A stretch of DNA of 64,000 nucleotides from an uncultured Bacteroidota bacterium (GTDB lineage Bacteria > Bacteroidota > Bacteroidia > Flavobacteriales > Flavobacteriaceae), in contig CAJXVU010000001.1 in assembly GCA_913062555.1 (NCBI GenBank), forward strand, positions 124,001 to 188,000, written 5' to 3'. The translations under genes and the position numbers were made by a program. Numbering within the stretch: position 1 is the first letter of the stretch; each line of letters begins with the position of its first letter. The notes under the pieces are model-generated. The model was not told the DNA's origin and did not search any database. It worked only from the letters and a program-made list of their open reading frames with translations. Positions 1 through 28,987 of this stretch are shown piece by piece.

Positions 1-444
1 GTAACTATAAAAAATACTGACAGCACTTCATTCCCATTCAATATTGGATGGCATCCCTATTTTTGTAGCAGTAATTTGTACGACAGTTATTTAAGCCTTA
101 AAAGCGATAAAAAATTACTTTTTGACAAGGATATGATACCTGTGAAAGCAGAAAACATAGCGCTCCCTTCTGATTTACAAATTAAAGATGAAAAATTTGA
201 CGACTGTTTTATTTTAAGCAATAAATCTATTGGATTTAAAACCCCTGATTACAGATTCATGATGAGCTCATCTTCTAAAGAAAACTATTTTCAAGTATTT
301 ACACTAAATAAAATAAATGCAATTGCACTCGAGTTTTTAACAGGCCCAGCCAACAGCTTTAATAATAAACTCGGCTTACGTGAATTAAATCCAAAAGAAA
401 CATATACCGTTAACTGGGATATAAAATTAACAGAAGATGAATAA
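1..444 (+). CDS. galM: Aldose 1-epimerase (mutarotase), 5' end outside window
   Basis: The reading frame is open from base 1, so the gene begins upstream; a TTG at 76 is only an internal codon. The first visible residues contain GWHPYF, matching the conserved G-x-H-x-Y-F segment that carries an active-site histidine in galactose mutarotases. The C-terminal part has the usual beta-sandwich ending (about 148 residues visible). It would interconvert alpha and beta anomers of galactose or glucose, feeding galactokinase. It overlaps the next gene by 8 bases, so it belongs to the same operon. Family call is fairly firm; the exact sugar is inferred from the neighbouring galK and galT. Confidence 0.8.
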   Translation, partial: VTIKNTDSTSFPFNIGWHPYFCSSNLYDSYLSLKSDKKLLFDKDMIPVKAENIALPSDLQIKDEKFDDCFILSNKSIGFKTPDYRFMMSSSSKENYFQVFTLNKINAIALEFLTGPANSFNNKLGLRELNPKETYTVNWDIKLTEDE

Positions 445-2473
445 AACAATTCTACATATAGCAATTCTAACCTGTTTAATTATAAGTGGTTGTGCTTCAG
501 ATAACAAAGAAAATCAGCGCCAATCTGAAAATTATCCGTCCCTAAAATTTAGTAAAAACAGCTTAGACTACCGAATTACACCAGCTGATAAATTCGACAA
601 AGCGGGGCTAATGTTTTCTGATCAAGGGGCGTGGTTTGGGTATAGCTTTCCTAAAACCGACTGGAATGCCATTGGGTTTTCAGGGCCCTTTTTAATGACT
701 GAACAAAACGGTATTTGGATCAGTCCAATGTTGACCCGATTATTATTACAAACTACTGAGCGTCATCCTGAATCAGTAATTAATTTTAAAAACGATTTAA
801 TAAGTCAGCATAGCTATTCAAGTCATTTAGAACAAATACTAAAAAATAAAAATATACAGCTAAAACTCGAGCTCGTATTTTTATCTGGCCATACAGCCCT
901 TCAGCGCATTACTATCACCAATATTTCAAAACAAAGCATTCAAATGAATGCAAATTTACAAGGTGGGGTTCATGATATCGAAATTAAGCTATCTCAAGAG
1001 CACGGTATTGTAAAATTAAGTTCACAAAACTCTGATGCTGTTGGATACATTCAAACAATAAACAAAAACGAATCTGTTGCCCTTTTAGATGAAGACAGGT
1101 TTGCCGATTTCCAACTTTCGGAGTTTACCTTAGAACCTCAACAATCAAAAGAGCTCATTACTGCTCATACCTTTATATTCCCAGAATATTCCTGGGAAGA
1201 TGAGCAACAATTAATCACCAACAGTGATTTTGACGAAGTGTTAAATTCAAGAAAATCTGAAAAAGAATCACAGCTCTCAGCACTTATAACTAATAGAAAA
1301 TCAAATTTTCAAGACACGACATATGCCGAAGTTTTAGCAAAAGCACATTTAACATTACAAAATAACTGGCGTATTCCAGCAGGAGAAATTAAACATGACG
1401 GACTGTTTCCTAGTTATCATTACAAATGGTTTAATGGATTCTGGTCTTGGGATTCGTGGAAACACGCCGTAGGACTTTCTTACTATAGTCCAGATTTAGC
1501 CAAAAAGCAAATGAAACTGATGTTTGACTTTCAAAATGATGACGGATTTATTGTAGACTGCGTATTCCGTGACACCAGTATAGAAGCGCATAATTATCGT
1601 GACACCAAACCCCCATTATCCGTTTGGGCCGTTGCTAAAATATTTGAAAAAGATAAAGATCTAGAATTTGTAAAATTCATGTATCCCAAATTAAAAAAAT
1701 ACCATTATTGGTGGTACTCCAAGCGTGATCATGACCAAGATGGTCTTTGTGAATATGGCTCTACCGATGGAAGTTTGATTGCGGCAAAATGGGAAAGCGG
1801 GATGGATAACGCCATTAGATTTGACGATTCTAAAATTTTAAAAAATGCCGAAGGGGCTTATTCTTTAGATCAGGAAAGTGTAGATCTAAATGCATATCTC
1901 TATGCCGAAAAATTATATTTAGCAGAATTAGCTAAAGCATTAAAACTGGAAGATGTCACCAGCTTACTTGCTGAAGCCGCCAGTTTAAAATCGCGTATCC
2001 AGCAACAATTTTATGACAGCCATGACGGCTGGTTCTACGATACAAATTTAGAAGGGAATACTTTTATTAAAGGGGAAGGTAGCGAAGGCTGGACTGCACT
2101 TTGGGCAAATGCTGCAACAGCAAAACAAGCTGAAGCCGTTAAAAAGCGAATGATGAATCCAGAAAAGTTTTATACCAGAGTTCCTTTTCAAACCATGAGT
2201 GCCGACCACCCAAAATTTGATCCTCTTAAAGGTTATTGGCGTGGTCCAAATTGGCTCGATCAAGCCTATTTTGGAGTAAAGGGATTACGCAATTATGGAT
2301 TTGATACTGAAGCAGACCAAGCTACAATTCAAATTTTAAAAGGCCCTGAAGGTCTGTTAGATAAAGGAACATCTATACGAGAAAACTATCACCCAATAAC
2401 CGGAGAAGGCTTACATGCCAAAAACTTTAGCTGGAGTGCTGCACATATTATAATGTTATTAATGGAAAATTAA
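437..2473 (+). CDS. GH63-type (YgjK-like) exo-alpha-glucosidase lipoprotein
   Basis: A 678-residue protein with a lipoprotein signal ending in ISGC, so probably periplasmic or surface anchored. An N-terminal beta-sandwich is followed by an (alpha/alpha)6 catalytic region from about residue 300. Landmarks are WFNGFWSWDSWKHA (aromatic and Asp rich), WESGMDNA with the likely general acid D457, and ENYHPITG with the likely base E649; these correspond to YgjK-type GH63 enzymes and to the GH37/GH63 clan. Eukaryotic GH63 removes alpha-1,2-glucose from N-glycans, and I recall that E. coli YgjK accommodates Glc-alpha-1,2-Gal. It sits directly before a GH2 gene with no gap. I infer an exo-alpha-glucosidase, possibly acting on Glc-alpha-1,2-Gal of collagen hydroxylysine; another alpha-glucoside is possible. 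Confidence 0.78.
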   Translation: MNKTILHIAILTCLIISGCASDNKENQRQSENYPSLKFSKNSLDYRITPADKFDKAGLMFSDQGAWFGYSFPKTDWNAIGFSGPFLMTEQNGIWISPMLTRLLLQTTERHPESVINFKNDLISQHSYSSHLEQILKNKNIQLKLELVFLSGHTALQRITITNISKQSIQMNANLQGGVHDIEIKLSQEHGIVKLSSQNSDAVGYIQTINKNESVALLDEDRFADFQLSEFTLEPQQSKELITAHTFIFPEYSWEDEQQLITNSDFDEVLNSRKSEKESQLSALITNRKSNFQDTTYAEVLAKAHLTLQNNWRIPAGEIKHDGLFPSYHYKWFNGFWSWDSWKHAVGLSYYSPDLAKKQMKLMFDFQNDDGFIVDCVFRDTSIEAHNYRDTKPPLSVWAVAKIFEKDKDLEFVKFMYPKLKKYHYWWYSKRDHDQDGLCEYGSTDGSLIAAKWESGMDNAIRFDDSKILKNAEGAYSLDQESVDLNAYLYAEKLYLAELAKALKLEDVTSLLAEAASLKSRIQQQFYDSHDGWFYDTNLEGNTFIKGEGSEGWTALWANAATAKQAEAVKKRMMNPEKFYTRVPFQTMSADHPKFDPLKGYWRGPNWLDQAYFGVKGLRNYGFDTEADQATIQILKGPEGLLDKGTSIRENYHPITGEGLHAKNFSWSAAHIIMLLMEN

Positions 2474-5814
<3,341 letters not shown>

Positions 5815-5815
<1 letters not shown>

Positions 5816-6990
5816 TGAAGAAAATATTCATCTTAATTTTTATTTGTGTCTTTTCTAAAGCCGAGGCACAAAAATTCGAAAATCTAGCACTAACACCTCC
5901 TATGGGTTGGAATAGCTGGAATACATTTAAATGTGATGGCATTAATGAAAATGTCATCAAAGAAATGGCAAACACAATGGTTTCCAAAGGCATGAAAGCT
6001 GCTGGATACGAGTATATTGTAATTGATGATTGTTGGCAAATAGGTCGCGATAACCAAGGATATATAATTATTGATAAGGAAAAATTTCCTTCTGGCATGA
6101 AAGCCTTAGCAGATTACATCCACTCCAAAGGCCTTAAATTTGGAATATATTCTGATGCTGGAACACATACTTGCGGTGGACGTCCTGGGAGCAAAAATTA
6201 TGAATTAAAAGATGCCGAACGATATGCCGAGTGGGGTGTAGATTATTTAAAATATGACTGGTGTAATACTGAAGGCCAAGATGCCATAGCATCCTATACA
6301 TTAATGAGAGATGCCTTATACACCAACAAGAGGCCGATTCTATTTAGTATTTGTGAATGGGGCGAAAATGAACCTTGGAAATGGGCTGGAACTATTGGAC
6401 ATATCTGGAGAACCACCTACGATATAAATTTCGATGGCAGTTTTGATGGCGACCGTTGGGGAAATCAGTTTGGTTGGTCAGAAATAATAGATAAACAAGT
6501 GGGATTAGAGAAATACGCGGGTCCAGGGCATTGGAATGACCCTGATATGTTAGCCGTGGGCATTGGGATGCCAGTAAATGAAAGTAGAGCCCATTTTACC
6601 ATGTGGTGCATGTTAGCAGCTCCCTTAATGTCAGGAAATGATTTGCGTGAAATGACTTATGATACTCAAGCAATTCTTACTAATAAACACCTTATTGCTA
6701 TAGATCAAGATAATCTGGGAAAACAAGGGTATAAAATTATTGACGAAGGTGCTTTTGAAGTATGGCAAAAACCACTATCCAATGGTGAAATAGCCATTTG
6801 TTTGTTTAATAGAGATACTAAGGTTAAAGATTACATATTAAATTGGAAACAGCTTAAGATTAAAGCCTTTGAAGGGACTTATTCAGTAAAAAATGTATGG
6901 ACACAATCACCAATGGGTACCACTGAAGATATTACAAAACTTCAGCTGCCCTCAAGAGACGTCATACTTTTTAGATTGAAACCCATATAA
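5815..6990 (+). CDS. GH27 alpha-galactosidase, exported
   Basis: A 391-residue protein with a short signal peptide ending near AEAQ, followed at once by the GH27 signature PPMGWNSWNTF. Other family landmarks are IDDCWQ, YLKYDWCN with nucleophile D148, the TTYDI segment with probable acid/base D203, and GHWNDPDML. A C-terminal beta-sandwich ends the protein. GH27 enzymes retain configuration and cleave terminal alpha-galactose (some cleave beta-L-arabinopyranose). The start overlaps the GH2 stop by one base. In a collagen-glycan reading of this operon the alpha-galactosidase has no obvious target, so a second substrate with alpha-galactose is likely. Confidence 0.9.
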
Positions 6991-7033: not shown

Positions 7034-13213
<6,180 letters not shown>

Positions 13214-13214
<1 letters not shown>

Positions 13215-14795: not shown

Positions 14796-14800
14796 CAACT

Positions 14801-16321: not shown

Positions 16322-17545
16322 TTACACTTTTGAAATTCCGAATGGATCATTAATAGAATATGCAGGCTCGGTAAACCATTTCGGACCCTCATCAGTCATA
16401 TAAATATGATCTTCATGTCGAATTCCAAATGCATCAGGCACACAAATCATTGGTTCATTACTAAAACACATTCCAGCAGCTAATATCGTTTCATCATTTC
16501 TAACGATATAAGGGTATTCATGAATATCCAATCCAATACCATGTCCTGTTCGATGTGGAAGGCCAGGCAGCTTATAATCTGGCCCTAACCCATGAGATTC
16601 TAATACGACTCTAGATGCCGTATCGACAGCAGCGCATGAATTTCCTATTTGTGCGGCATTAAAAGCAGCGTGTTGCGTTTCTTTTTCAATGTCCCAAATC
16701 CGTTTTTGCGTGTCATTGGCTTCACCGTAGACATAAGTTCTTGTAATGTCCGAAATATAACTATAAAGTACACAGCCTGTATCTATCAAAACTATTTCGT
16801 CTTCTTCCATATCTTTTGGTGTTACTACGCCATGCGGGAAGGACGAATCAACGCCAAAGAGTACAATACAGAAATATGAACCTGAAGTTATTCCGTACCG
16901 CTTATGTGCTTCATTAATAAAGTCAACAACTTCTTTTGCACTTATCCCAGGTCTTAAAATACGTGCAGCAGCTTTTTGTACTTCCAATGTAATATTCATA
17001 GCATGTTGCATGATCGCAATTTCTGCTTTCGATTTAAACATTCTACAACCCGCAATAATCGATTTAGCATTGACAAGAATAAATTTTGAATTTGCTTTTA
17101 AAATGCCATCGGAAATAAAAAAAGGCGTGGTTTCATCTATTAGAATTTCACCTTTAACAACACCATTTTCACTCAGGATATCGGAAAATAATTTATATGG
17201 ACTCTCATGTTCATTCCAGCAACGTACGTCACCCTCAATACACATAAAATCCAACACCGTTCCTTTTTCGAACTCTGGAGCGATATATTGTAAAGTTCCG
17301 TTAGGGAATAATATAGCACCCACCATACGTTCACTGGAGTTCCATCGTGTGCCAGTAAAATAATATAGATTAGTTCCTGAATGCAAATAAACAGCTCGAA
17401 TATTTTGTGATCGCATTAACTTACAAGCTTTGTTAATTCGCGCCTGAAATTCTTCTTTCTTTATTGGGGTAGCTAAATGCGCTATTGGAGCTATTGCTTT
17501 TAATTCTGCTTCAATTGTTGATCCTCCAATTCCAAATGTATTCAT
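16322..17545 (-). CDS. M24 family Xaa-Pro peptidase (prolidase-like)
   Basis: A 407-residue M24 metallopeptidase with a creatinase-like N-terminal domain and a pita-bread catalytic domain. All five metal ligands are visible: Asp in VLIDTGC, Asp in SDITRTY, His in HRTGHGIGLDIHE, Glu in CFSNEPMI and Glu in IRHEDHIY. No signal peptide, so cytoplasmic. Such enzymes cleave Xaa-Pro bonds in di- or short peptides. It is the last gene of the hydroxyproline operon, 24 bases after the other M24 gene, consistent with releasing Pro/Hyp from imported peptides. Confidence 0.88.
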   Translation of the reverse strand: MNTFGIGGSTIEAELKAIAPIAHLATPIKKEEFQARINKACKLMRSQNIRAVYLHSGTNLYYFTGTRWNSSERMVGAILFPNGTLQYIAPEFEKGTVLDFMCIEGDVRCWNEHESPYKLFSDILSENGVVKGEILIDETTPFFISDGILKANSKFILVNAKSIIAGCRMFKSKAEIAIMQHAMNITLEVQKAAARILRPGISAKEVVDFINEAHKRYGITSGSYFCIVLFGVDSSFPHGVVTPKDMEEDEIVLIDTGCVLYSYISDITRTYVYGEANDTQKRIWDIEKETQHAAFNAAQIGNSCAAVDTASRVVLESHGLGPDYKLPGLPHRTGHGIGLDIHEYPYIVRNDETILAAGMCFSNEPMICVPDAFGIRHEDHIYMTDEGPKWFTEPAYSINDPFGISKV

Positions 17546-17569: not shown

Positions 17570-18862
17570 TTAGGCTTGCATTAATTTTTCAATATCATCA
17601 ATCTCAATTGGCATCGCTTCAGTAAGATTGATATTCCCGTTTTCGGTAATCAAATAGTCATTTTCTAAACGACAACCAATGCCTTCCTCTGGTATATAAA
17701 TTCCTGGCTCACAGGTGAGCACCATACCGGCTTCCAAAGGTCTGGAATATAAACCGACATCATGAACATCTAATCCAAGATGATGGGCGGTACCATGCAT
17801 GAAATATTTTTTATACAAAGGCTTATCAGGATCTTGAGCATTTACATCAACGAGCTTTAAGAGCCCTAATTTTACTAATTGTGATTCTACTAATTTCGCC
17901 ATTTCAGCTTCATAATCTGAAGCTATCACCCCAGGTTTCAATAACTTACTACCCTTTTGTAAACAATATAAAACGGCATTATAAACCTCCTTTTGTCGTT
18001 CTGAAAATTTACCGTTCACAGGAATACAGCGTGTAGTATCGCTATTATAATTTGCATAACACACTCCAAAATCAATCAAAATCATATCGCCCTCATCACA
18101 AATATCATCATTAGCATTATAATGCAAGGCACAAGCATTTTTTCCTGAAGCCACTATAGGTTTGAATGCATGTCTCGTCCCTCCAGCTTTTGTTAAACTA
18201 TAAGTTAACTCGGCTTCAATTTCATATTCTTTAATATCTGGCTTAGTCGCTTTTAAAACACGATAAAAACCATCAATACTTATCTCAGCGGCTTTTTTAA
18301 TAAAAATAAGTTCTTGATCCGATTTTATTTGTCGTAATTCTCTAGTAATTTTCGCAGCCCTATGGTAGCTATGCAAAGGATATTTCTCTTTGCACCAGTT
18401 GATCATTCTATCTTGCTGGGTTTGCTGATTATGAGTAACCCGTTTAATATGTTCATTATGTCCTAAATAAAACCCATCAGCTTCAAAAGCAATGAGCTGT
18501 AGCAATTTTTCGAAATCGTGAAACCATTCAACACGATCAATTCCTGAAACTTGAGAAGCCCCAGATTTTGTTAGTTTTTCTCCATCCCAAATTTTAATTT
18601 GTTCGTTAGTTTCTTTAACAAAAAGTATGGCTCTGTTTTCGGGTTTATAAGCATCAGGAAACATTAATAAGATTGTTTCTTCCTGATCAATCCCACATAA
18701 ATAAAACAGATCATTATTCTGGGCAAAACCCATCACATCATCGGCATTGGTATGCTTAACATCATTTGAAGTTAAAATAGCGATGGCATTAGATTTCATT
18801 TTAGAAACAAAATTGTTTCTGTTTTTAATAAATAAAGTATTCGGAATTTGGTCGTAACGCAT
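17570..18862 (-). CDS. Xaa-Pro aminopeptidase, M24B (PepP-like)
   Basis: A 430-residue aminopeptidase P-type protein: N-terminal AMP_N domain (starting MRYDQIPNTLFIKNR), then the catalytic domain. Metal ligands are Asp in LIDFGVCY, Asp in SDTTRC, His in HGTAHHLGLDVHD, Glu in CEPGIYIP and Glu in CRLENDY. It removes N-terminal residues that precede proline, and probably hydroxyproline. It sits 2 bases after the D-amino-acid dehydrogenase gene. It differs from the neighbouring M24 protein in length and N-terminal domain, so the pair likely divides peptides by length. Confidence 0.92.
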   Translation of the reverse strand: MRYDQIPNTLFIKNRNNFVSKMKSNAIAILTSNDVKHTNADDVMGFAQNNDLFYLCGIDQEETILLMFPDAYKPENRAILFVKETNEQIKIWDGEKLTKSGASQVSGIDRVEWFHDFEKLLQLIAFEADGFYLGHNEHIKRVTHNQQTQQDRMINWCKEKYPLHSYHRAAKITRELRQIKSDQELIFIKKAAEISIDGFYRVLKATKPDIKEYEIEAELTYSLTKAGGTRHAFKPIVASGKNACALHYNANDDICDEGDMILIDFGVCYANYNSDTTRCIPVNGKFSERQKEVYNAVLYCLQKGSKLLKPGVIASDYEAEMAKLVESQLVKLGLLKLVDVNAQDPDKPLYKKYFMHGTAHHLGLDVHDVGLYSRPLEAGMVLTCEPGIYIPEEGIGCRLENDYLITENGNINLTEAMPIEIDDIEKLMQA

Positions 18863-18864: not shown

Positions 18865-20112
18865 TTAAAATTTTCTGTCAGGATGATAAGGTGCAAGTTC
18901 TAAGGACGGTTTTTGGTCTGTAATTATTTCAGAAACCAATTTACCTGTTGCAGTAGACATACTCCAACCCATCATTGCATGTCCTGCTGCGATGGTCAAG
19001 TTTTTACATTTTACTGACTTGCCTATATATGGCAAACCATCTGGAGAAACCGGGCGTAACCCAGCTGCTGCATTATCTTTTTCTGACGCTGTGAGTTTCA
19101 AATCAGGATAATACCGCGTTGCCGCATTCGCGATAGCCTCAACTCTAACTTTATTTATATCATGATTAATACCAGCAATTTCCATAGTTCCAGCAAATCG
19201 GGTAAACCCATTCATAGGTGTTACAGCTGCTTTCGCCTCTGCTAATATGGCTGGAATAGTAATTCCCGTAGATGTTTGGGTATTAATATTATATCCCTTC
19301 CCTGCTTGCAGTAATAATTTTACTCCTAACTTTTTACTTAATAGACTCGTCCATGATCCTGCTGCCATCACAAATTCATCGGCACGAAGTACTTGCTTAT
19401 TTGTTTTTATTTCAGATATTATTCCGTTCTCAATATTTAAATCATCCACTCTTTCATTGCTAAAAAACTGAACCCCATTTTGTTTTAAATAAGATTTCAT
19501 TTCTTCCATGAATTCTTGCGGTGTTGAATGGTGATCACATTTAAAATAGGCCGCCCCAATGGCATCAATTTTTACATTGGGTTCTAATTGTTTAATTTCA
19601 TCCGTATTGATCTCTTTTGCTTCAAGACCTAGACTTCGTGCTAAATCGGCATTTCCTACTTCTTCTTCCAACATTTTTTCTGTTTGACACAACATTAGAA
19701 GTCCTTTCTTTTCATATTGACTACTAAAACTTTCTGATTTTTTAATGTCCTCAAATAAGTGCTGACTCATTACTGAAATATCCCGAATAACAGGAGCCGA
19801 CTTTTGAACATGAGCAGCGTTACAAGACTTATTAAAGGCCCAAGCCCATTTAATTAAATCTGAATTTAATCTAGGTTTAATATAGAAAGGGCTGGATTTA
19901 TCAAACATCCATTTTAAGCCTTTTTTCATGACGCCCGGTGCAGACAATGGTATGAGGTGACTTGGTGACAAATACCCCGCATTGACATACGATGCGCCTG
20001 CATCCATATTGGATTGATCTACAATGGTTACTTCACAACCATCTTTTTGAAGATAATAGGCTGAACATAACCCAATAATTCCACCCCCAATAACAATTAC
20101 TTTTTTACTCAT
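18865..20112 (-). CDS. FAD-dependent D-amino acid dehydrogenase, probable D-hydroxyproline dehydrogenase
   Basis: A 415-residue DadA/DAO-type flavoprotein. The N-terminal Rossmann motif GGGIIGLCSAYYL binds FAD, and the C-terminal segment GLRPVSPDGLPYIG followed by AAGHAMMGWSMS is typical of the DadA group. Between the hydroxyproline epimerase and the deaminase-like gene in one operon, it most likely oxidises cis-4-hydroxy-D-proline to 1-pyrroline-4-hydroxy-2-carboxylate, passing electrons to the respiratory chain. Other D-amino acids cannot be excluded from sequence alone. It is spaced 3 bases after the S9 peptidase gene. Confidence 0.85.
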   Translation of the reverse strand: MSKKVIVIGGGIIGLCSAYYLQKDGCEVTIVDQSNMDAGASYVNAGYLSPSHLIPLSAPGVMKKGLKWMFDKSSPFYIKPRLNSDLIKWAWAFNKSCNAAHVQKSAPVIRDISVMSQHLFEDIKKSESFSSQYEKKGLLMLCQTEKMLEEEVGNADLARSLGLEAKEINTDEIKQLEPNVKIDAIGAAYFKCDHHSTPQEFMEEMKSYLKQNGVQFFSNERVDDLNIENGIISEIKTNKQVLRADEFVMAAGSWTSLLSKKLGVKLLLQAGKGYNINTQTSTGITIPAILAEAKAAVTPMNGFTRFAGTMEIAGINHDINKVRVEAIANAATRYYPDLKLTASEKDNAAAGLRPVSPDGLPYIGKSVKCKNLTIAAGHAMMGWSMSTATGKLVSEIITDQKPSLELAPYHPDRKF

Positions 20113-20115
20113 TAC

Positions 20116-22377
20116 TTAATTCCACTTAAAATTCCAAATTGGTTTTATTTCCAGAAGATGTTCTACAAAATAGTTCCATCTTTTTTTAATAAAATAACTT
20201 CTGTGTTTGCCTCGATAGCCATGACGTTGACTTGGTAAAATTAATAAATCAAATTCTTTATCTGCATTTACCAATGCTTCTGCTAATTTAAAGGTTGCTG
20301 ATGGATTTACATTATCATCTATCCCACCATGTACCAATAATAATTTTCCTTTAAGGTTTTCCGCCATCGTAATATTTGACACCTCTTGATATGATTCGTC
20401 AACAGGCCATCCCATATACATTTCTGGCCACCACGCTTTTTCCATTCTAAAATCATGATCTGCCGAACTTGAAACACCGACTTTATAAAAATCTGGGAAT
20501 GCTAATAAGGCATGACCAGTATCAAATCCTCCTGCTGAATGCCCAAATACACCCACCTTATCAGTATTTATCCAATTATATTTTTCTCCTAAATGCTTAA
20601 TTGCTAAAACATGATCTTCCAAGTTATTTCCCATGTTTTTATAAGAAAAATCATGAAATGCTTTAGAGCGTCCTGAAGTTCCTAATCCATCAATTTGAAC
20701 TACAATAAAACCTAACTCCGCTAATGACTGATTATCAAATCCTCTATTAAAAGACTTTGGAAACCGTTGCGTATGTGGCCCGGTATAAGTTGCATCAATT
20801 ATTGGATAAGATTTTGATGGATCCAAATTTGTAGGCTTCCAAAAGGCACCATAAATAGTTGTTTTTTTATCTTTAGCCGTGAGCTGAAATATTTCAGGGG
20901 CCGTCCACCCATTTGAAAGGGCCTCCGTTACATTAGCACTTGTAAGTTGTGCCAAAATCTTTCCTGATTTCGTTACCCTTAATACTGATTTAGTAGGCTC
21001 ACTAATTGTAGAGAAATTATCTACAAAGTACGTTCCGTTCTCAGAAAATGACACCATATGATGTTTGTTTTCTGGAGTTAACAATGTCATTTTTCCTTTT
21101 AAGTTTACTTTATATAATTGCTGATGATACGGATTGTTACCAGATTCTTTTCCTGAGGCCAAAAAGTATATTATGCCATTATCCTCATCTATGTATTCAA
21201 TATCATTTATATAAAAATTACCAGTAGTAAGTGCCTTGGTTTCATTAGTTATTAAATCCACAATATACAGCTGTCTCCAACCGCTTCGTTCTGATAAAAA
21301 CACTATTTTGTCTTTATTTTCTATTGACCAAAAATTAAAGTTGTCAATATTAGTTTGACTACTCTCAGTGATTATAGTTTTCTCCGTATTAGAATTTAAA
21401 TCAACTTGCTTTACATATTCTTTTTGATATCCTCGTTCTGGATAGCGGGCAAAAACAATTCCAGATTGTTCTGACCAACGTGTGTTAACAGAATTAATAT
21501 GCGTGGCTTTTGGAAGGCTTGTTTTTATTTCCTTCCTGGAATTTACATTATAAAAAACTGGCTGCACATGAACCATTGTTGTATCTCCCGGAGAACCACG
21601 ATAATATGACAATAATTTTGACTTGTATAAAGAGTCTATACTATGATCTAATAAAAACATCTTTTCGGCATTTCTAAAATCGACTATGCTCGTTGATATC
21701 CATTTGGAATCTTTGGACCAATTGACATAAAAGTGTTTTGGACGTTCACCATTTTCGCCTTCTATGATATCATACCAACCATAATATGTTGCATACTCAT
21801 AATCTTTTTTCCCATCAAAACTCAGTTGATGTTCTTCCTCTGTTTCAGTAGCCTTAATATATAAGTTATAATTTTTGGTATAGGCCACCCATTTACCATC
21901 TGGGGATTTACTTTCAAAAGAATTTTCTGGTTCTTTCTTTTCTTCTTCTATTTCTAATAAGGTATAAGTATTTAGAGCTAAGGCATATTTTTTGTCTTCA
22001 GCTTTAAAAGTATAATTTCCATTTTCAGTAGGCTCAATTGATGAAATTGACAAAGCTGTTGGTTTAATTGTTTTATTTAAAATTTCACTTAATGCTGCAG
22101 CAAGTCTTTCATGATCAAATAATAAATCAACTTGATGTTTTTTAAAGTCAACGGTTTTATAAGCCTTACCAGCCTTGCTATAATCTACAAACCACAGCCC
22201 AGAACCGTCTTTAAACCAATTGACTGAAGTATACAGATTAAATGCTGTTTTATTATTGTAATTATCATACATATAGCTCACAGCACGTCTATAATCATCT
22301 TGTGTGATTTCCTGTGCATTGATTGGAAATATTCCTAAACACAGGATCCCTAATAAATAGTAAAACGGATTCTTCAT
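20116..22377 (-). CDS. Dipeptidyl peptidase IV-like S9 prolyl peptidase, exported
   Basis: A 753-residue S9 peptidase with a signal peptide ending near INAQ, so periplasmic or surface exposed. An N-terminal DPP-IV beta-propeller (to about 480) precedes an alpha/beta-hydrolase domain. The catalytic triad reads S614 in GHSAGGF, D687 in HGGIDDN and H719 in SQRHGY. The nucleophile elbow is GHSAGG rather than the common GWSYGG. DPP-IV enzymes release Xaa-Pro dipeptides, which fits the two cytosolic M24 peptidases and hydroxyproline enzymes encoded beside it. It is 90 bases downstream of the epimerase gene, the widest gap in this operon. Confidence 0.9.
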   Translation of the reverse strand: MKNPFYYLLGILCLGIFPINAQEITQDDYRRAVSYMYDNYNNKTAFNLYTSVNWFKDGSGLWFVDYSKAGKAYKTVDFKKHQVDLLFDHERLAAALSEILNKTIKPTALSISSIEPTENGNYTFKAEDKKYALALNTYTLLEIEEEKKEPENSFESKSPDGKWVAYTKNYNLYIKATETEEEHQLSFDGKKDYEYATYYGWYDIIEGENGERPKHFYVNWSKDSKWISTSIVDFRNAEKMFLLDHSIDSLYKSKLLSYYRGSPGDTTMVHVQPVFYNVNSRKEIKTSLPKATHINSVNTRWSEQSGIVFARYPERGYQKEYVKQVDLNSNTEKTIITESSQTNIDNFNFWSIENKDKIVFLSERSGWRQLYIVDLITNETKALTTGNFYINDIEYIDEDNGIIYFLASGKESGNNPYHQQLYKVNLKGKMTLLTPENKHHMVSFSENGTYFVDNFSTISEPTKSVLRVTKSGKILAQLTSANVTEALSNGWTAPEIFQLTAKDKKTTIYGAFWKPTNLDPSKSYPIIDATYTGPHTQRFPKSFNRGFDNQSLAELGFIVVQIDGLGTSGRSKAFHDFSYKNMGNNLEDHVLAIKHLGEKYNWINTDKVGVFGHSAGGFDTGHALLAFPDFYKVGVSSSADHDFRMEKAWWPEMYMGWPVDESYQEVSNITMAENLKGKLLLVHGGIDDNVNPSATFKLAEALVNADKEFDLLILPSQRHGYRGKHRSYFIKKRWNYFVEHLLEIKPIWNFKWN

Positions 22378-22467: not shown

Positions 22468-23478
22468 CTAAATCACCTGAAAACCATAAGCGTATGGGTC
22501 ATCTTCACCATCAATAATAATATTATTATAACCATAAACTTTTGCCCACCCTTGAATACTTGGAATGATTGCCTGTTTATTTCCTAAAGTTGTTTCTTCT
22601 TCAACACAGCCAATAAACTTACTCCCTATAAAGCTTTCGTGAATAAACTGTTCTCCTTTTTTCAATTTTCCTTTGGCATGTAATTGTGCTATCCTTGCTG
22701 AAGTACCTGTACCACATGGTGATCTATCTATGGCTTTATCACCATAAAATACGGCATTCCGACCTGAAGAAGTAGGATCAATTGGATCTCCAGTCCATAA
22801 CATATGTGTCACATCTCTTATCGTATCATCTTCGGGATGAATAAATTGATTTGGGTATTTTTCATTAATTCTATCACGAACAATTTGAGAATATTGAATA
22901 ATTTTGCTAGCCGTAAAATCATGTACGCCAGAAAAATTTTGTTGAGGATCCACAATGGCGTAATAATTTCCACCATAGGCCACATCAAAACTTATTTCCC
23001 CTAATTCGGGACAATCTATTGTTAATCCTTCAGCAGCGAGATAACTTTTAACATTGGTTAATTTTACCCAATCTACTTTTTTTCCTGTTTGTTGATACTC
23101 AATATTTACTAAGCCTGCTGGAGCTTCCATTTTAATTTTACCAGGAATTTTAGGTGTTACCAAGCCTTCTTCAATAGCTATCGTAATGGTACCAATAGTA
23201 CCATGCCCACACATTGGCAAGCAACCAGAGGTTTCTATAAATAAGATTGCAAAATCATTTTCTGGGTTGTGTGGTGGAAATAGAATAGAACCACTCATCA
23301 TATCATGACCACGAGGCTCAAACATTAAACCCTTTCGAATCCAATCGTATTCTTTTAAAAAATGTTGGCGCTTTTCACTCATATTAGCACCTATAAGGTT
23401 TGGTCCACCTCCAGCAACTACTCTCACTGGATTACCACAGGTATGTGCATCAACGCAAAAAAATGTCTTTCTACTCAT
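22468..23478 (-). CDS. 4-hydroxyproline 2-epimerase
   Basis: A 336-residue proline-racemase-superfamily enzyme. Both catalytic cysteines are present, C90 in MCGHGTIG and C255 in SPCGTGTS. The family member trans-3-hydroxyproline dehydratase has Thr at the second position, so the Cys pair supports an epimerase. It would convert trans-4-hydroxy-L-proline to cis-4-hydroxy-D-proline, the first step of the pathway (HypRE/LhpA type). Its start overlaps the DUF885 gene end by 8 bases. Proline racemase is the alternative, less likely given the pathway neighbours. Confidence 0.92.
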   Translation of the reverse strand: MSRKTFFCVDAHTCGNPVRVVAGGGPNLIGANMSEKRQHFLKEYDWIRKGLMFEPRGHDMMSGSILFPPHNPENDFAILFIETSGCLPMCGHGTIGTITIAIEEGLVTPKIPGKIKMEAPAGLVNIEYQQTGKKVDWVKLTNVKSYLAAEGLTIDCPELGEISFDVAYGGNYYAIVDPQQNFSGVHDFTASKIIQYSQIVRDRINEKYPNQFIHPEDDTIRDVTHMLWTGDPIDPTSSGRNAVFYGDKAIDRSPCGTGTSARIAQLHAKGKLKKGEQFIHESFIGSKFIGCVEEETTLGNKQAIIPSIQGWAKVYGYNNIIIDGEDDPYAYGFQVI

Positions 23479-25192
23479 TTAATTTTTTCTCTATATAATC
23501 ATCCATCCGTTTTTCCATAATTGAAAGTGTGACTGTACCTTCTTCTAAGATCACTTCATGAAATTGGCGAATATCAAATTTATCTCCCAAAGCTTCTTCT
23601 GCTTTTTTACGAAGTTGTCTAATTTTAATTTCTCCAATCTTGTATGATAATGCTTGTCCTGGCCAAGAAATATATCTATCTGTTTCTGTCGTTACTTCAT
23701 GAATTGACAAAGCCGTGTTTTCAGACATATAATCTATCATTTGTTGTCTTGTCCATCCTTTGGCATGAACTCCAGTGTCAACCACTAGTCTACATGCTCG
23801 CCACATTTCATAAGTTAACTGTCCAAACTTTTCATACGGCGTGGTGTAGATATTCATTTCATCTACCAAATATTCTGAATATAATCCCCATCCTTCACCA
23901 TAAGCTGACAAGTACAATCCTCTTCTAAAAGCAGGAATGGTTTTTGGCAACTCGTTATTCAATGAGATTTGTAAATGATGTCCAGGAACAGCCTCGTGTG
24001 CTGTTAAAGCAGGAATTGTGTATAATGTTCTACTTGGTAAATTGTAAGTATTCACCCAATAAAAACCTGCAGTTGTTTCACTATAAGAACCTGAATATCT
24101 TCCTCCAGTATAATTTGGAGCAATTGCGGCAGGAACTGGTACAACTCCATATGGCTTTCGAGGTAATGTTATAAAATATTTAGGCAATTCTGCATCTATC
24201 CTTTTAGCAATATCACGAGCAAACATCAATAATTCTTCAGCTGTTTTTGGATAAAATTGCGCGTCAGTTCTAAGAAATTTTAAAAACTCAGCAAATGACC
24301 CTTTAAAATTTAAATCGGAAATAATCTTATTCATTTCAGATTTGATTCTAGCTACTTCCTGCAACCCAATTTTATGAATATCGTCCGCTGTATATTTAGA
24401 ACTTGTTGTAAAATAATTGATTCTGTTTTGATAAAACGCTTTCCCATTAGGAACTGTTGATATCCCTAATCCCGGTCTTGTGTTTAGAAAGTATTCATCT
24501 TCAAAAAAGGTTTTAATCTTTTTATATTGATCTATTGCGTTTTTTTGAACACTGACTTTGGCAACTTTAATTATAGAATCTTTTAATTCATTAGAAAATG
24601 ATTCTGGTAATTTATGAAATGGTTTAAAAAACTCACTTTTGGTTGGATCTGAAATAATGTGTTTATTATAAGTATCCTCATAATTATGAAAAATAGCTTT
24701 CGGCTGAGCGAACCCTTCTTTTATTGCTGCCCTTAATAAATTAATATTGTATTCAACCCTTTGTGGTAAGTTGTCAAGACTTTTTAAATATTGAATTACT
24801 TGCTTCTTTTTTTTAAAAGTTCTATTTCCCATTCTACTCAAATTTAAATGGAATGCAGATTCGTTTGTAATTGTATTCAAGTACATTTTATAAATGTGCT
24901 TGTCAATTTTATCTTGTAAAACGAAAAGCAACAACTCTCTTGATATTTGTTCTGTTTTAGACAAACCTTCAACAGCAACCAATTCTAATTCTTCTTTAAG
25001 TTTTATTGAAAAGTCAGCCTCAGCTTGGAAATATTTAATTGTGTTTTCTAAAGATTCATATCTCTTAAATTCATAGATTCTTTCTGCTTCATATTTCGCA
25101 ATAATTGCGTTTAATTTATCTGAATCTGATTCTTGTTTAAACGACAAAAACACCAGAAAGGCTAAGAGATAACAAAGTTTGAATCTTTTCAT
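23471..25192 (-). CDS. DUF885 family metallopeptidase, exported
   Basis: A 573-residue DUF885 protein with an N-terminal hydrophobic signal (LCYLLAFLVFLSF). A largely helical body carries HEAVPGHHLQ at about residue 400, the HExxxGHH-type zinc motif of this family, and the downstream EGWGLYSEYL segment with a likely third metal ligand. Such proteins resemble M3/M32-like gluzincins and probably cleave short peptides; some members act on proline-rich peptides. The gene lies between the aldehyde dehydrogenase (18-base gap) and the epimerase (8-base overlap), so it is part of the hydroxyproline operon. Specificity is not readable from sequence. Confidence 0.85.
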   Translation of the reverse strand: MKRFKLCYLLAFLVFLSFKQESDSDKLNAIIAKYEAERIYEFKRYESLENTIKYFQAEADFSIKLKEELELVAVEGLSKTEQISRELLLFVLQDKIDKHIYKMYLNTITNESAFHLNLSRMGNRTFKKKKQVIQYLKSLDNLPQRVEYNINLLRAAIKEGFAQPKAIFHNYEDTYNKHIISDPTKSEFFKPFHKLPESFSNELKDSIIKVAKVSVQKNAIDQYKKIKTFFEDEYFLNTRPGLGISTVPNGKAFYQNRINYFTTSSKYTADDIHKIGLQEVARIKSEMNKIISDLNFKGSFAEFLKFLRTDAQFYPKTAEELLMFARDIAKRIDAELPKYFITLPRKPYGVVPVPAAIAPNYTGGRYSGSYSETTAGFYWVNTYNLPSRTLYTIPALTAHEAVPGHHLQISLNNELPKTIPAFRRGLYLSAYGEGWGLYSEYLVDEMNIYTTPYEKFGQLTYEMWRACRLVVDTGVHAKGWTRQQMIDYMSENTALSIHEVTTETDRYISWPGQALSYKIGEIKIRQLRKKAEEALGDKFDIRQFHEVILEEGTVTLSIMEKRMDDYIEKKLNE

Positions 25193-25210: not shown

Positions 25211-26794
25211 TTAAATTTTATTATTAGTGAGTTTCCCATTTACAGTTCTGCCAATCTCTAATGGGTTTTCATTTTTTAATTCAATTGGAAGTAAATCATT
25301 TGGCCAATCTTGATAACTAAAAGGTCTTACAAATCGCTTAATCGAATCGACACCAACCGCAGTAAATCTTGAATCTGTAGATGCTGGATAAGGCCCTCCA
25401 TGAAGCATTGATGGACAGACTTCAACTCCTGTAGGCAAGCCATTAAAAATTATTCGGCCAACTCTATTTTGCAAAGTATTTACAACTGATGTATATGCTC
25501 CAATTTCATTATCATCAGAAATAATTGTTCCAGTTAATTGTCCTTCTAAGTTTGAAATTATTTCTTCTAATTGGGTTTCATTTTGACATTGAACCACTAA
25601 AGAATATGGTCCAAAAACTTCTTGATGTAAAGTTGGGTTATTTAAAAACGTCTCTCCTTCTACAGTTGTTACAACTTGTTTTGCATAATTAGGTTTTACA
25701 TCTGCATCATAACCAGCCAAAACTTCAATGCCATTTTGAGCCACGGCATTTGCCTTATTGCTTTCATAGGCCCCAGCAATGTTTGGATGTAACATACATG
25801 AAGGTTCAACTTTTACAATTTCTTCCGCTAAAGTATTTATGAAATTTGTTAGTCCATCTGATTTTAAACCAATTATTAAACCTGGATTTGTGCAAAATTG
25901 CCCCGTTCCTAATGTTATTGAACCCGAGACTGTTTTTGCTAAAGCTTCAGCTCTATTTTGTAAAGCCTGAGGTAAAATAATCAAAGGATTTACACTTCCC
26001 ATTTCAGCAAGTACCGGAATTGGTTCCTTACGTTTTGCTGCCAAATCAAATAAAGCGCGTCCACCTCTAATACTTCCAGTAAAGCCAACAGCTTTAACCT
26101 TTGGATGCTGTACTAAAACTTGCCCAACTTCAATACCACTACTATTAAGGTTTGAAAATACACCATTTGGCATTCCTGTTTTTTCTGCTGCATTTATTAT
26201 AGCACTAGAAACCATTTCGCCAGTCGCTGCATGCATTGGGTGCGATTTAACAATTACAGGACATCCTGCAGCAAGCGCGGCTGCCGTATCTCCTCCAGCG
26301 GTTGAAAACGCGAAAGGAAAATTTGATGCTCCAAAAACTACAACTGGACCTAAAGCTATATTCATTTTTCTTAAATCTACTTTTGGCATAGGTTTGCGCT
26401 CAGGTTGTGCAGTATCAATTGAGGCATCTACCCAATTACCTTCTTCAACATGTTTTGCAAAGGCACGCAATTGACCAAGAGTTCGTCCTCTTTCTCCCAT
26501 TGCTCTGCCATTTGGCAATCCGCTTTCTGAAGAATAAACTTGTAATAAGTCGTCTCCTAAAGCTTCTATTTCTTCTGCTATTGCTCTTAGAAATTTCGCT
26601 TTTTTCGCTCCAGACATTTTTGAATAGGTCTTGTATGCTTGAGCAGCTAATTCTGCCGCTTGATTAACCTCAGTATTAGAAGCCTCGGTTATTATCCATT
26701 GATTTTCAATATTCAATAAAGGGTTAAACGTTTTAAATGTTTTATTTCCTAGTGCTGATAATTGATTTCCTATATAATTTTTTCCTGTAATCAT
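25211..26794 (-). CDS. Alpha-ketoglutaric semialdehyde (2,5-dioxovalerate) dehydrogenase
   Basis: A 527-residue aldehyde dehydrogenase of the long KGSADH subgroup. Catalytic C301 is in GTGQFCTNPG and the general base E264 in VLAEMGSVNP; the cofactor loop GFTGSIRGG is also visible. It oxidises 2,5-dioxopentanoate to 2-oxoglutarate with NAD(P)+, the last step of hydroxyproline degradation. It overlaps the DUF1272 gene by 4 bases (ATGA). Since it is the only aldehyde dehydrogenase in the window, it might also meet aminoadipate semialdehyde made by the fusion protein at 7034; that is speculation. Confidence 0.92.
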   Translation of the reverse strand: MITGKNYIGNQLSALGNKTFKTFNPLLNIENQWIITEASNTEVNQAAELAAQAYKTYSKMSGAKKAKFLRAIAEEIEALGDDLLQVYSSESGLPNGRAMGERGRTLGQLRAFAKHVEEGNWVDASIDTAQPERKPMPKVDLRKMNIALGPVVVFGASNFPFAFSTAGGDTAAALAAGCPVIVKSHPMHAATGEMVSSAIINAAEKTGMPNGVFSNLNSSGIEVGQVLVQHPKVKAVGFTGSIRGGRALFDLAAKRKEPIPVLAEMGSVNPLIILPQALQNRAEALAKTVSGSITLGTGQFCTNPGLIIGLKSDGLTNFINTLAEEIVKVEPSCMLHPNIAGAYESNKANAVAQNGIEVLAGYDADVKPNYAKQVVTTVEGETFLNNPTLHQEVFGPYSLVVQCQNETQLEEIISNLEGQLTGTIISDDNEIGAYTSVVNTLQNRVGRIIFNGLPTGVEVCPSMLHGGPYPASTDSRFTAVGVDSIKRFVRPFSYQDWPNDLLPIELKNENPLEIGRTVNGKLTNNKI

Positions 26795-27074: not shown

Positions 27075-28004
27075 TTAGGCAACAACATTCAAGTTTTTAT
27101 AATCGGGTAATGTTGGGCGGGTTTTTAATCCTTTTTCTATAATACTTAACACCTTTTCACGTTCCGCTCCATAAAGTGGTAATCGTGGTTCACGAACGTT
27201 TTCTGTTCCAATTCCTGTAGCCACTTCTGCCAACTTAATATTTTGCACTAATTTAGTATTAATATCCAGTTCCAACAAGGGTAAGAACCATCGATAAATT
27301 TCTAATGCTTCTTGTGTTCTTCCTGCTTTTGCTAGGTTAAATATGGCTACTGTTTCCGCTGGAAAAGCACAAACTAATCCTGCAACCCAACCGTCAGCTC
27401 CCATAAAAACACTTTCTAAAGCTAAAGTATCTACACCACTTAAAATAGCCAATCTATCTCCAAAACGATTTTTTATACGAGTAATATTTGATAAATCTCT
27501 AGTCGATTCTTTTACGGCTTGAATATTTGGACAATCACGAAGCAATTCTTCAAACATATCTAAAGTAACTTCAATCCCATAATCAACAGGGTTATTATAA
27601 ATCATAATAGGCAATGAGGTGCTATTTGCAACCTTTTTAAAATAAGTTACAGTTTCTCTATCATCAGCTTTATAGCGCATTGGAGGTAACATCATTAATC
27701 CAGATGCACCATCTTCTTTTGCTTTTTTTGCAGCATCTATTGCCCCTGAGGTAGTTTGCTCTGCGATATTCATTACCACTGGAACTTTTCCATCAACAAT
27801 TTCTACAGCTTTTCTAACAATAGTTCTTTTTTCATCATCGGTAAGTGTACTCGCTTCCCCTAGTGTTCCTCCAAGAATAATCCCGTTAACACCTGCTTTT
27901 AATTGTGCATGGATATTAACTTCAAAGTTTACTAAATCTAAAGTATCTTGATCTGTAAATTTAGTCGTTACTGCTGGCATTACGCCTTCCCATTGTAAAC
28001 TCAT
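27075..28004 (-). CDS. DapA-family lyase, probable 1-pyrroline-4-hydroxy-2-carboxylate deaminase
   Basis: A 309-residue N-acetylneuraminate lyase/DapA superfamily TIM barrel. The Schiff-base lysine is K165 in AVKESTRD and the conserved tyrosine is Y136 in MIYNNP; the GGTLGEAST loop near residue 45 replaces the GTTGE of DapA. In hydroxyproline operons such proteins deaminate 1-pyrroline-4-hydroxy-2-carboxylate to 2-oxoglutarate semialdehyde (HypD/LhpC). All three other steps are encoded directly downstream, which makes this assignment strong compared with dihydrodipicolinate synthase. It is the first gene of the operon and faces the AraC regulator. Confidence 0.88.
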   Translation of the reverse strand: MSLQWEGVMPAVTTKFTDQDTLDLVNFEVNIHAQLKAGVNGIILGGTLGEASTLTDDEKRTIVRKAVEIVDGKVPVVMNIAEQTTSGAIDAAKKAKEDGASGLMMLPPMRYKADDRETVTYFKKVANSTSLPIMIYNNPVDYGIEVTLDMFEELLRDCPNIQAVKESTRDLSNITRIKNRFGDRLAILSGVDTLALESVFMGADGWVAGLVCAFPAETVAIFNLAKAGRTQEALEIYRWFLPLLELDINTKLVQNIKLAEVATGIGTENVREPRLPLYGAEREKVLSIIEKGLKTRPTLPDYKNLNVVA

Positions 28005-28023
28005 AATGTAAATTTATTTTTGA

Positions 28024-28051
28024 CAAAATTAGTTCAAGAACTCAAATTTTG
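28024..28051. promoter_or_regulatory. Dyad operator-like site with embedded -7 motif
   Basis: In the 137-base divergent gap between the hydroxyproline operon and araC there is a dyad: AGTTC-AA-GAACT at the centre, flanked by CAAAATT on the left and AATTTTG on the right. Read on the minus strand, the left edge contains TAATTTTG, which fits the Bacteroidota -7 consensus TAnnTTTG about 20 bases before the start of the DapA-like gene. A matching -33 element was not evident. The placement suggests an operator that controls the operon promoter. Confidence 0.45.
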
Positions 28052-28141
28052 ATAATGCCTATCTATCCATTTCTAATATAATATTATCCAATAAAAAATA
28101 AAACGTGCTGTTAATGAGTATTATTTGCATATTTTAGCCAT

Positions 28142-28987
28142 ATGAAGGTATTACCATTTAAAATTCCTAAACCAGAACATCACGCGCTTATTTATCAGGA
28201 AGATTCTGAGTTAGTATTCTATGACAAGTTTCATCAGCATGAAGAAATTCAAGTGAGTTATATTAAAGAAGGCGAAGGCACATTAATTGTTGGTGATACT
28301 ATTAATTATTATAAAAAAGGAGATGTTCTTGTGATTGGGAGTAATCTTCCTCATGTTTTTAAAAGTGATATTTCTAACAATACTAAATCGCACATGCTAA
28401 CCTTGTTTTTTACTATAGATGCTTTTGGTGATGGCTTTTTTGATTTGGAAGAACTAAAAGAGTTGAATTCTTTTTTTAAGCGTACTGAAAACGGGTTTAA
28501 AGTATCTGCTAACGACAAACTTATTGACTTTTTTTATGAGCTTAAACCAAACTCTAAGCTACAGCGGTTCATTATACTATTAGAAATTTTAAAATTGCTT
28601 TCAAAAAGCAAAAAGAAACCCCTTTCTTCTTTCATCTATGAAAAGCAATATACTGATATTGAAGGAAAACGCATGAGCTCGGTGATGGAATATACAATGA
28701 ATAATTATTACAATAATATATCACTTGATACTATTGCTACTGTAGCTGCGATGACTAAAAATGCTTTTTGCAAATACTTTAAAAAACGTACCAACAAAAC
28801 ATATTTTCGTTTTTTAAATGAATTAAGGGTTGAGAACGCCAGCAAATTATTATTAATAAACAACGATTTATCTATAGCAGAGATAGCAGATAAATCTGGG
28901 TTTAATAACATCTCTAATTTTAATCGTCAATTTAAATCTGTAAAACTGATTGCACCATCAGAATATAGAAAGCTAAAAGCCATTTAA
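28142..28987 (+). CDS. AraC family transcriptional regulator (cupin + HTH)
   Basis: A 281-residue regulator with an N-terminal cupin-type sensor domain (HQHEEIQVSYIKEGEG around residues 30-45) and a C-terminal AraC double helix-turn-helix (about 180-281; SIAEIADKSGFNNISNFNRQFK is the second helix-turn-helix region, here cited only in part). Divergent from the hydroxyproline operon with 137 bases between, it is the natural candidate for its hydroxyproline-responsive regulator. An intrinsic terminator overlaps its stop codon. Confidence 0.9.
   Translation: MKVLPFKIPKPEHHALIYQEDSELVFYDKFHQHEEIQVSYIKEGEGTLIVGDTINYYKKGDVLVIGSNLPHVFKSDISNNTKSHMLTLFFTIDAFGDGFFDLEELKELNSFFKRTENGFKVSANDKLIDFFYELKPNSKLQRFIILLEILKLLSKSKKKPLSSFIYEKQYTDIEGKRMSSVMEYTMNNYYNNISLDTIATVAAMTKNAFCKYFKKRTNKTYFRFLNELRVENASKLLLINNDLSIAEIADKSGFNNISNFNRQFKSVKLIAPSEYRKLKAI

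Follow-up and report, generated by a model that had tools for sequence, protein, structure and literature searches.

A candidate catabolic island for collagen glycopeptides, with a kinase-peptidase-phospho-lyase fusion, in an uncultured member of the Flavobacteriaceae

Few animal proteins are as abundant as collagen. In vertebrates, hydroxylysine kinase and 5-phosphohydroxylysine phospho-lyase (HYKK and PHYKPL), reportedly identified in 2012, are separate proteins, and in the established pathway the lyase yields aminoadipate semialdehyde. A bacterial gene cluster, that of Colwellia BB5, is presumed in parts of its published description to be devoted to collagen (PMC7883544). The sugar pair on collagen hydroxylysine is glucosyl-alpha-1,2-galactose (Glc-alpha-1,2-Gal) in sections 6.2.2 and 6.5 of PMC11012932, whereas the abstract of that paper prints beta for the glucose; according to passages of the same paper and of PMC8626586, human PGGHG, a GH65 enzyme, removes the glucose from glucosyl-galactosyl-hydroxylysine (Glc-Gal-Hyl). 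Here we describe a locus in a stretch of 64,000 nucleotides, hereafter the window (G000:C1:124001-188000), from the genome of an uncultured Flavobacteriaceae bacterium (3.8 Mb, 105 contigs, 89% complete). Two convergent operons meet in this locus, one carrying a GH63 enzyme, two GH2 enzymes, galactose genes and a kinase-M23-phospho-lyase fusion, the other hydroxyproline genes and peptidases. We consider it probable that its genes were selected together as an island for the catabolism of collagen peptides that are both glycosylated and hydroxylated.

With the Colwellia BB5 cluster, the most similar of the published clusters considered, the locus shares, as sections of its description present it, a hydroxyproline epimerase, a D-hydroxyproline dehydrogenase, a deaminase, an alpha-ketoglutarate semialdehyde dehydrogenase, a pyrroline reductase/OCD and prolyl peptidases (PMC7883544). 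The same sections report a secreted M9 collagenase and a PPIase for Colwellia BB5, whereas no M9 match was obtained in the window's genome. Neither a hydroxylysine kinase or lyase nor GH63/GH2 nor galactose genes are described in section 12, and the word hydroxylysine is absent from the main text (PMC7883544). The logic of HYKK and PHYKPL, a kinase followed by a phospho-lyase dependent on pyridoxal phosphate (PLP), recurs in the window, but as one chain with an M23 domain in between. The GH63 enzyme resembles YgjK, a GH63 protein with a Glc-alpha-1,2-Gal complex (3w7w), in fold and in the sequence of its catalytic region, and among the literature matches listed no link of YgjK to collagen was seen. 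PGGHG and FjGH65A belong to GH65, in contrast to the window's GH63, and FjGH65A is reported, in the passages cited, to be active on kojibiose (PMC8626586, PMC11012932).

Co-occurrence was analysed in 149 genomes of the family, one per genus; all p-values (hypergeometric) treat genera as independent and ignore phylogeny. Using thresholds of E ≤ 1e-100 for the kinase/lyase-type protein and the trans-3-hydroxyproline (3-Hyp) dehydratase, E ≤ 1e-60 for GH63 and E ≤ 1e-90 for the DHDPS-family marker of 4-hydroxyproline (4-Hyp) catabolism, a kinase/lyase-type match was obtained in 57 genomes and the full-length three-domain fusion in 33. GH63 was present in 15 genomes, 14 of which carry the full-length fusion (33/149; p = 6.6e-10). 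In the remaining one, G118, OCD-T3-GH63-GH2 and a 4-Hyp operon stand together at a fusion-free site, and a different contig carries a fusion of 750 residues that lacks M23. The 3-Hyp dehydratase was found in 19 of the 149 genomes, all of them belonging to the 57 (19/19, p = 1.3e-9), and 14 of them also carry the full-length fusion (p = 2.9e-7). Of the 33 genomes with the full-length fusion, 24 have the DHDPS marker (p = 9.7e-4), which is present in 71/149 overall; its overlap with the 3-Hyp dehydratase was not significant (12/19, p = 0.11). The fusion of G060, cut by a contig of 3.4 kb, is among the 33 but was left out of the 32 neighbourhoods considered below; G085 and G102 (contig-cut or partial lyase matches, 61% and 50%) and G033 (kinase plus M23) are counted in the 57 but not in the 33, and G085 may hold a cut full-length fusion.

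Neighbourhoods reaching about 20 kb to either side, or less where a contig ended, were compared for 31 other uncut full-length fusions, giving 32 with the window. GH63 lay within three genes of the fusion in 12 of the 31 (13/32 with the window) and a GH2 of type B in 11 (12/32). At least two of the four 4-Hyp genes were near the fusion in 14 (15/32), and the 3-Hyp pair in 6 (7/32). Any of the three modules, GH63, 4-Hyp or 3-Hyp, was seen in 21 (22/32), and GH63 together with hydroxyproline genes in 6 (7/32). Thus, co-conservation of the operon parts, which the sequence-only reading of this DNA had proposed to look for, is seen in relatives. Most of the island (GntR, galM, GH63, fusion, GH2, galK, galT, GNAT and a convergent hydroxyproline operon) is found again in two loci, those of G005 and G105, which add a sodium symporter. 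Because other genera show parts of the same arrangement, chance neighbourhood was rejected.

Among the best 80 named records out of more, many of them short, 15 held GH63, 14 the 4-Hyp set, 11 the 3-Hyp pair and 31 at least one of the three. Restricted to the 55 records with at least 16 kb of mapped genes, the counts were 14, 11, 10 and 26. The two samples are not fully independent (L132 = G080, L135 = G086, L181 = G078). GH63 also stands beside the fusion in records from Chitinophagales (L168), Cyclobacteriaceae (L151) and Bacteroidia (L190), and hydroxyproline genes directly adjoin fusions of as little as 43-52% identity (G078, G158, L157, L159, L160, L183). Among these records, a Flaviramulus and Gelidibacter japonicus, members of the Flavobacteriaceae, have the nearest fusion proteins, with 77% identity. 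Fusion carriers include Tenacibaculum finnmarkense, Winogradskyella bathintestinalis and Flagellimonas onchidii, which we take to be linked to animals.

The fusion combines an APH kinase, an M23 peptidase and a class-III PLP enzyme in 1010 residues, the M23 domain occupying residues 439-535 between kinase and lyase. Its structure model is confident, with a mean predicted local distance difference test (pLDDT) of 86.2 and a predicted template modelling score (pTM) of 0.87. Kinase residues H202, D204, N209 and D226 are invariant in an alignment of 29 homologues, as are M23 residues H440, D444, H530 and H532 in 29/29 aligned fusions. Fold matches of the lyase domain include human ethanolamine-phosphate phospho-lyase (6tor, 48% identity) and an Arthrobacter phospho-lyase (5g4i, 38%). 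A PDB search with the kinase domain gave no credible relative, its two matches having E values of 0.5 and 0.6. The three-domain architecture is already known: NCBIfam PRK06148 (NF004799) models it as a 'hypothetical protein' with no function named and covers residues 10-1004, scoring 1116.6 bits against a cut-off of 1128. By eye the fusion has no evident signal peptide, which makes its M23 domain, then cytoplasmic, an odd feature. M23 is absent from the short fusion of genus g146, and G033 matches kinase and M23 without a lyase. The protein is predicted to be a hydroxylysine kinase joined to a 5-phosphohydroxylysine phospho-lyase.

For the GH63 enzyme, E. coli YgjK was the closest solved protein in a PDB sequence search, and YgjK entries took ranks 1-8 of the fold search; among them, 3w7w is titled as a complex with 2-O-alpha-D-glucopyranosyl-alpha-D-galactopyranose. 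Identity to YgjK is 24-26% over the structural alignment, and the model is middling (mean pLDDT 76.8). Residues Cys19, Asp339, Asp457 and Glu649 are invariant in 17/17 sequences. YgjK Asp501 and Glu727 are presumably the catalytic acid and base (E727 appears in PDB titles), and these positions align to D457 and E649 of the GH63, conserved in 17/17. The predicted target of the GH63 is the outer alpha-1,2-glucose of Glc-Gal-Hyl, and that of the second GH2 enzyme (GH2 B) is the galactose of the resulting galactosyl-hydroxylysine. Sugar removal would probably take place outside the cytoplasm, because both enzymes have lipoprotein-like starts (with Cys19 in the GH63 and a similar N-terminus in GH2 B).

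The fusion's substrate was approached through more distant relatives. In a phylum-wide search of 395 genomes, GH63 was found in 11, including the window's. Of the other ten, G361 has a full-length fusion beside GH63, and four genomes of genus g146 have a short kinase-lyase fusion of 765-768 residues, without M23, as the second gene after GH63. The gene order in G487 and G408 is 2-oxoadipate dioxygenase family (HGLS), L-piperidine-6-carboxylate (P6C) dehydrogenase, SusC, SusD, GH63, GH42 beta-galactosidase, kinase-lyase fusion and a YdiJ-like gene; the last encodes a large FAD/4Fe-4S protein, for which D-2-hydroxyglutarate dehydrogenase YdiJ is the best-scoring model (570 bits, under the cut-off of 1350). 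G194 has the same order with no SusC/D in the stretch read, and in G448 the dioxygenase, dehydrogenase and YdiJ-like genes are not in its stretch. For g146, family assignments were computed for G487, and for GH42 in G408 and G448 as well; those of the remaining genes rest on 82-92% identity.

The P6C dehydrogenase exceeds the equivalog cut-off of 730 in G487 (824.9), G021 (825.6) and G006 (816.9). In the latter two the copy near the fusion is a second, diverged one, the usual copy being present in 137/149 genomes. The dioxygenase family also occurs within the fusion loci of G021 and G079, and L116 has a relative at 34%; in L166 the fusion is adjoined by a YdiJ-like gene. In total, P6C dehydrogenase and/or 2-oxoadipate dioxygenase stand near the fusion in six genomes (G487, G408, G194, G021, G006, G079). 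Hydroxylysine is favoured because these are aminoadipate enzymes, none of which would be needed for acetaldehyde from ethanolamine. This context, taken from the loci of relatives and not from the window's own, is the strongest argument pointing to hydroxylysine. The sequence-only reading had named an action on ethanolamine-type substrates alone as the finding that would count against it; such an exclusive role was rejected as unlikely on the strength of the aminoadipate enzymes in the six genomes, while the nearest lyase in the PDB is of the ethanolamine-phosphate type. The route from 2-oxoadipate to D-2-hydroxyglutarate by HglS is published for lysine catabolism, not hydroxylysine, in the part of PMC7286885 that bears on it, and the HglS family lies in fusion loci of three g146 genomes, G021 and G079, in contrast to the window's genome, where it was not found. 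A P6C dehydrogenase is present in the window's genome on contig C41, as an open frame of 405 residues matching query residues 6-390 of 517.

Two further arrangements were observed around the same families. In G006 (L024:247-7673), genes for a KamA-type radical SAM aminomutase, PcaI, PcaJ, a GSAM-like PLP enzyme, a PcaF thiolase and P6C dehydrogenase stand by the fusion. This operon could encode a new route from aminoadipate via beta-aminoadipate and 3-oxoadipate to succinyl-CoA and acetyl-CoA; no open-access paper combining aminoadipate, aminomutase, oxoadipate and lysine was found. A related KamA/PcaI/PcaJ/GSAM set without a fusion is present in G110. A KamA-type route appears confined to few genomes, a KamA-like gene being found in 2/149. 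In G437 (L224:3593-11049) and G260 (L225), SusC, SusD, GH2, an APH-family kinase, diaminopimelate decarboxylase and GH63 lie in a row, the kinase and decarboxylase families having been run on G437 and carried over to G260 by gene sizes. The kinase is homoserine-kinase-like, and these islands were not counted as support.

The locus holds prolyl peptidases alongside 4-Hyp catabolic genes. The hydroxyproline pathway had been called complete by the sequence-only reading, and for the epimerase this stands, as it exceeds a curated cut-off; the oxidase, the DHDPS-family protein and the aldehyde dehydrogenase, three of the four pathway enzymes, fall below NCBIfam cut-offs and are assigned by operon context. 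For the aldehyde dehydrogenase the best NCBIfam model is 2,5-dioxovalerate dehydrogenase, with 122.5 far under the cut-off of 750. Both catalytic Cys motifs are present in the epimerase (MCGH and DRSPCG), while the proline-racemase-family protein upstream of the window carries MCGH and DRCPTG, that is, a Cys/Thr pair. Human trans-3-hydroxyproline dehydratase is described, in a section of PMC9309405, as carrying Cys104/Thr273. The best NCBIfam model of the upstream protein is likewise trans-3-hydroxyproline dehydratase (NF045511), at 363.7 against a cut-off of 540. Given these 3-hydroxyproline genes, the locus is more collagen-like than had been noticed before.

Gene content, operon layout, conserved motifs and co-conservation were observed here, and from them a route can be proposed, in which every reaction, the localisation and the induction are predicted. 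Outside the cytoplasm, signal-bearing peptidases and glycosidases would act on collagen peptides, GH63 taking the alpha-1,2-glucose and GH2 the beta-galactose off Glc-Gal-Hyl. Peptides and sugars would enter by transporters encoded elsewhere in the genome; some relatives carry SusCD or a sodium symporter inside the locus. Cytoplasmic M24 peptidases would then free proline and hydroxyproline. Free hydroxylysine would be phosphorylated by the fusion, which would eliminate phosphate and ammonia to give aminoadipate semialdehyde, and a dehydrogenase encoded elsewhere would convert this to aminoadipate. By the successive action of epimerase, D-hydroxyproline oxidase, deaminase and semialdehyde dehydrogenase, 4-Hyp would yield 2-oxoglutarate, 3-Hyp would be turned into proline by dehydratase and reductase, and galactose would be processed via galM/K/T.

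Several observations weigh against the collagen reading. The 4-Hyp marker is common in the family, 47 of its 71 carriers being without a full-length fusion, and it does not overlap significantly with GH63 (10/15, p = 0.10). Ten of the 32 full-length fusion loci have no GH63, 4-Hyp or 3-Hyp module within about 20 kb (within these ten, a GH2 of type B adjoins the fusion in G032, while G006 has the P6C dehydrogenase and G079 has the dioxygenase family), and many distant fusions stand in other contexts, so that the fusion may have further roles. The short fusions of G018, G026, G124 and contig C9 of G118 show none of the modules nearby, the GH63 of G006 (40% identity) stands 10 genes from the fusion, and five of the ten non-window GH63 relatives in the phylum-wide search (35-42% identity; G393 49% over part) have no fusion nearby. 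The GH63 model is weak near parts of the active site, with pLDDT below 50 at 432-477 and 651-665, the lyase domain has the human ethanolamine-phosphate enzyme as its closest solved relative, and we know of no role for GH27 in collagen glycans. In the window's genome, at 89% completeness, neither a 2-oxoadipate dioxygenase nor an M9 collagenase (PF01752) was found, other extracellular endopeptidases not having been searched for, and no blastp match to SusC/SusD of G013 (E ≤ 1e-8) lies within -40 to +64 kb. SusC/SusD pairs are present inside the fusion loci of G013, G021, G105, G080 and G164 and in three of the four g146 loci. As no dioxygenase, M9 or SusC/SusD was found, the locus seems to cover the inner, catabolic steps of collagen use, first attack and uptake being encoded elsewhere or left to other organisms.

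The same data bear on other explanations. Two unrelated neighbours, a galactoside (or galactolipid/floridoside-type) operon and an ordinary hydroxyproline/proline-peptide operon, with the fusion serving ethanolamine, would account for GH27, two GH2 enzymes and galMKT, which suit general galactosides, for the 48% identity of the lyase domain to the human enzyme and for the frequency of 4-Hyp genes without a fusion. However, GH63 and the trans-3-Hyp dehydratase track the fusion, which keeps hydroxyproline genes beside it even when strongly diverged and has aminoadipate-pathway enzymes near it in other genomes, and no gene of the other 31 fusion loci, or of the 80 named records, has GH27 as its best blastp match; we regard this explanation as improbable. 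A substrate from hydroxyproline-rich glycoproteins of plants, algae or diatoms instead of animal collagen seems a shade more unlikely still. Hydroxyproline and galactose also occur in such glycoproteins, and many carriers belong to what we take to be marine genera; hydroxyproline in plant cell wall components is mentioned in a section of PMC9309405. The tie of GH63 to the fusion speaks against such a substrate, as does Glc-alpha-1,2-Gal on hydroxylysine, a collagen signature according to sections of PMC11012932.

A narrower form of the collagen reading, whose odds overlap with it, is a scavenger of pre-degraded peptides and of free sugars and amino acids that does not attack native collagen. 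We give it somewhat less than an even chance. The lack of an M9 match in the genome agrees with it, M9 being over the cut-off in only 1/149 family genomes, and the peptidase families of the locus are, as we take it, exopeptidases and oligopeptidases. In its broader form, the collagen-glycopeptide reading, first suggested from the window's letters, is upheld by GH63 and hydroxyproline modules lying near the fusion, by the aminoadipate enzymes in relatives and by the Glc-alpha-1,2-Gal complex of YgjK, all of which point to glycosylated collagen peptides as the likely substrate; marine animals or sponges, which that reading named, would be a possible source of the collagen.

The gene list was checked with a map of open reading frames and Pfam profiles, lipoprotein and signal calls being made by eye (Table 1). 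Both agree on two convergent operons with the genes listed earlier, from galM to AraC, and every gene was confirmed; GH27, the M23 domain in the fusion and three upstream genes had been overlooked. The GNAT and M24 genes end at 16318 and 16322, with 3 bases between them. The plus-strand operon begins 3.6 kb upstream of the window with the 3-hydroxyproline genes, and its 13 genes from reductase to GNAT are spaced by at most 43 bp or overlap, a layout as expected of one transcript. The two GH2 enzymes share 41% identity.

Table 1. Genes of the locus in and immediately upstream of the window (positions are those of the window unless prefixed L003)
Feature	Position	Strand	Basis or remark
Pyrroline-2-carboxylate reductase	L003:16419-17378, upstream of window	same as galM	PRK06141, 380.6, above cut-off 322
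Trans-3-hydroxyproline dehydratase type, proline-racemase family	L003:17338-18438, upstream of window	same as galM	Cys/Thr motif pair, NF045511
GntR regulator	L003:18469-19524, upstream of window	same as galM	
galM, aldose 1-epimerase, 3' part	1..444	+	PF01263; gene start 461 bp before window
GH63 alpha-glucosidase, lipoprotein-type N-terminus	437..2473	+	PF22422, YgjK_N
GH2 LacZ-type beta-galactosidase A, N-terminal signal-like sequence	2474..5815	+	Pfam GH2 domains
GH27 alpha-galactosidase-like	5815..6990	+	PF16499, PF17801
Kinase (APH) - M23 metallopeptidase - PLP phospho-lyase fusion	7034..10066	+	Pfam
GH2 LacZ-type beta-galactosidase B, lipoprotein-type N-terminus	10080..13214	+	Pfam
galK, galactokinase	13214..14359	+	PF10509, PF00288, PF08544
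Small predicted lipoprotein, ~143 aa, NTF2-like by eye	14364..14795	+	open reading frame; beside many fusion loci
galT, galactose-1-phosphate uridylyltransferase	14765..15835	+	PF01087, PF02744
GNAT acetyltransferase, operon junction	15851..16318	+	PF00583; present in several relatives too
M24 peptidase, creatinase/prolidase type	16322..17545	-	PF00557, PF01321
M24 peptidase, aminopeptidase P type	17570..18862	-	PF00557, PF05195
FAD-dependent D-amino-acid oxidase/dehydrogenase, predicted D-hydroxyproline dehydrogenase	18865..20112	-	PF01266; operon context
S9 dipeptidyl-peptidase IV family, N-terminal signal-like sequence	20116..22377	-	PF00326, PF00930
4-hydroxyproline epimerase	22468..23478	-	PRK13971, 589.8, above cut-off 376
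DUF885 protein, possible peptidase	23471..25192	-	PF05960
Aldehyde dehydrogenase, predicted alpha-ketoglutarate semialdehyde dehydrogenase	25211..26794	-	PF00171
DHDPS-family protein (4-Hyp pathway marker)	27075..28004	-	PF00701; dapA below cut-off
AraC-family regulator, divergent from 4-hydroxyproline operon	28142..28987	+	PF12833, cupin; position kept in several relatives

Further out, 14-22 kb upstream of the window, lie genes for a DUF4407 protein (L003:5037-6137) and an M20 peptidase (L004:17573-18988); both are seen again close to many fusion loci of other genera and may belong to a common chromosomal backbone. Four GH92 genes, a family mostly of alpha-mannosidases, lie on one minus-strand stretch 23-35 kb before the window (L004:5414-16983). 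From 30082 to 63856 of the window, the larger open reading frames encode PhnA-domain, M56/TonB_C, TPR, histidine-kinase, LytTR-regulator, S41 peptidase, beta-lactamase-family and Vps10-like repeat proteins.

Among the open-access papers listed in searches on hydroxylysine breakdown, on glycosidases for Glc-Gal-Hyl and on loci of this kind, none describes the gene set, as judged by titles and the beginnings of abstracts, nor was bacterial use of glycosylated hydroxylysine found described among them. The island would be a catabolic gene cluster whose three-domain enzyme is unusual. Its genes offer candidate enzymes for hydroxylysine breakdown in bacteria and a candidate glucosidase, outside GH65, for the collagen disaccharide, and GH63 adjoining a kinase-lyase fusion would be a genomic marker by which to find consumers of collagen glycans.

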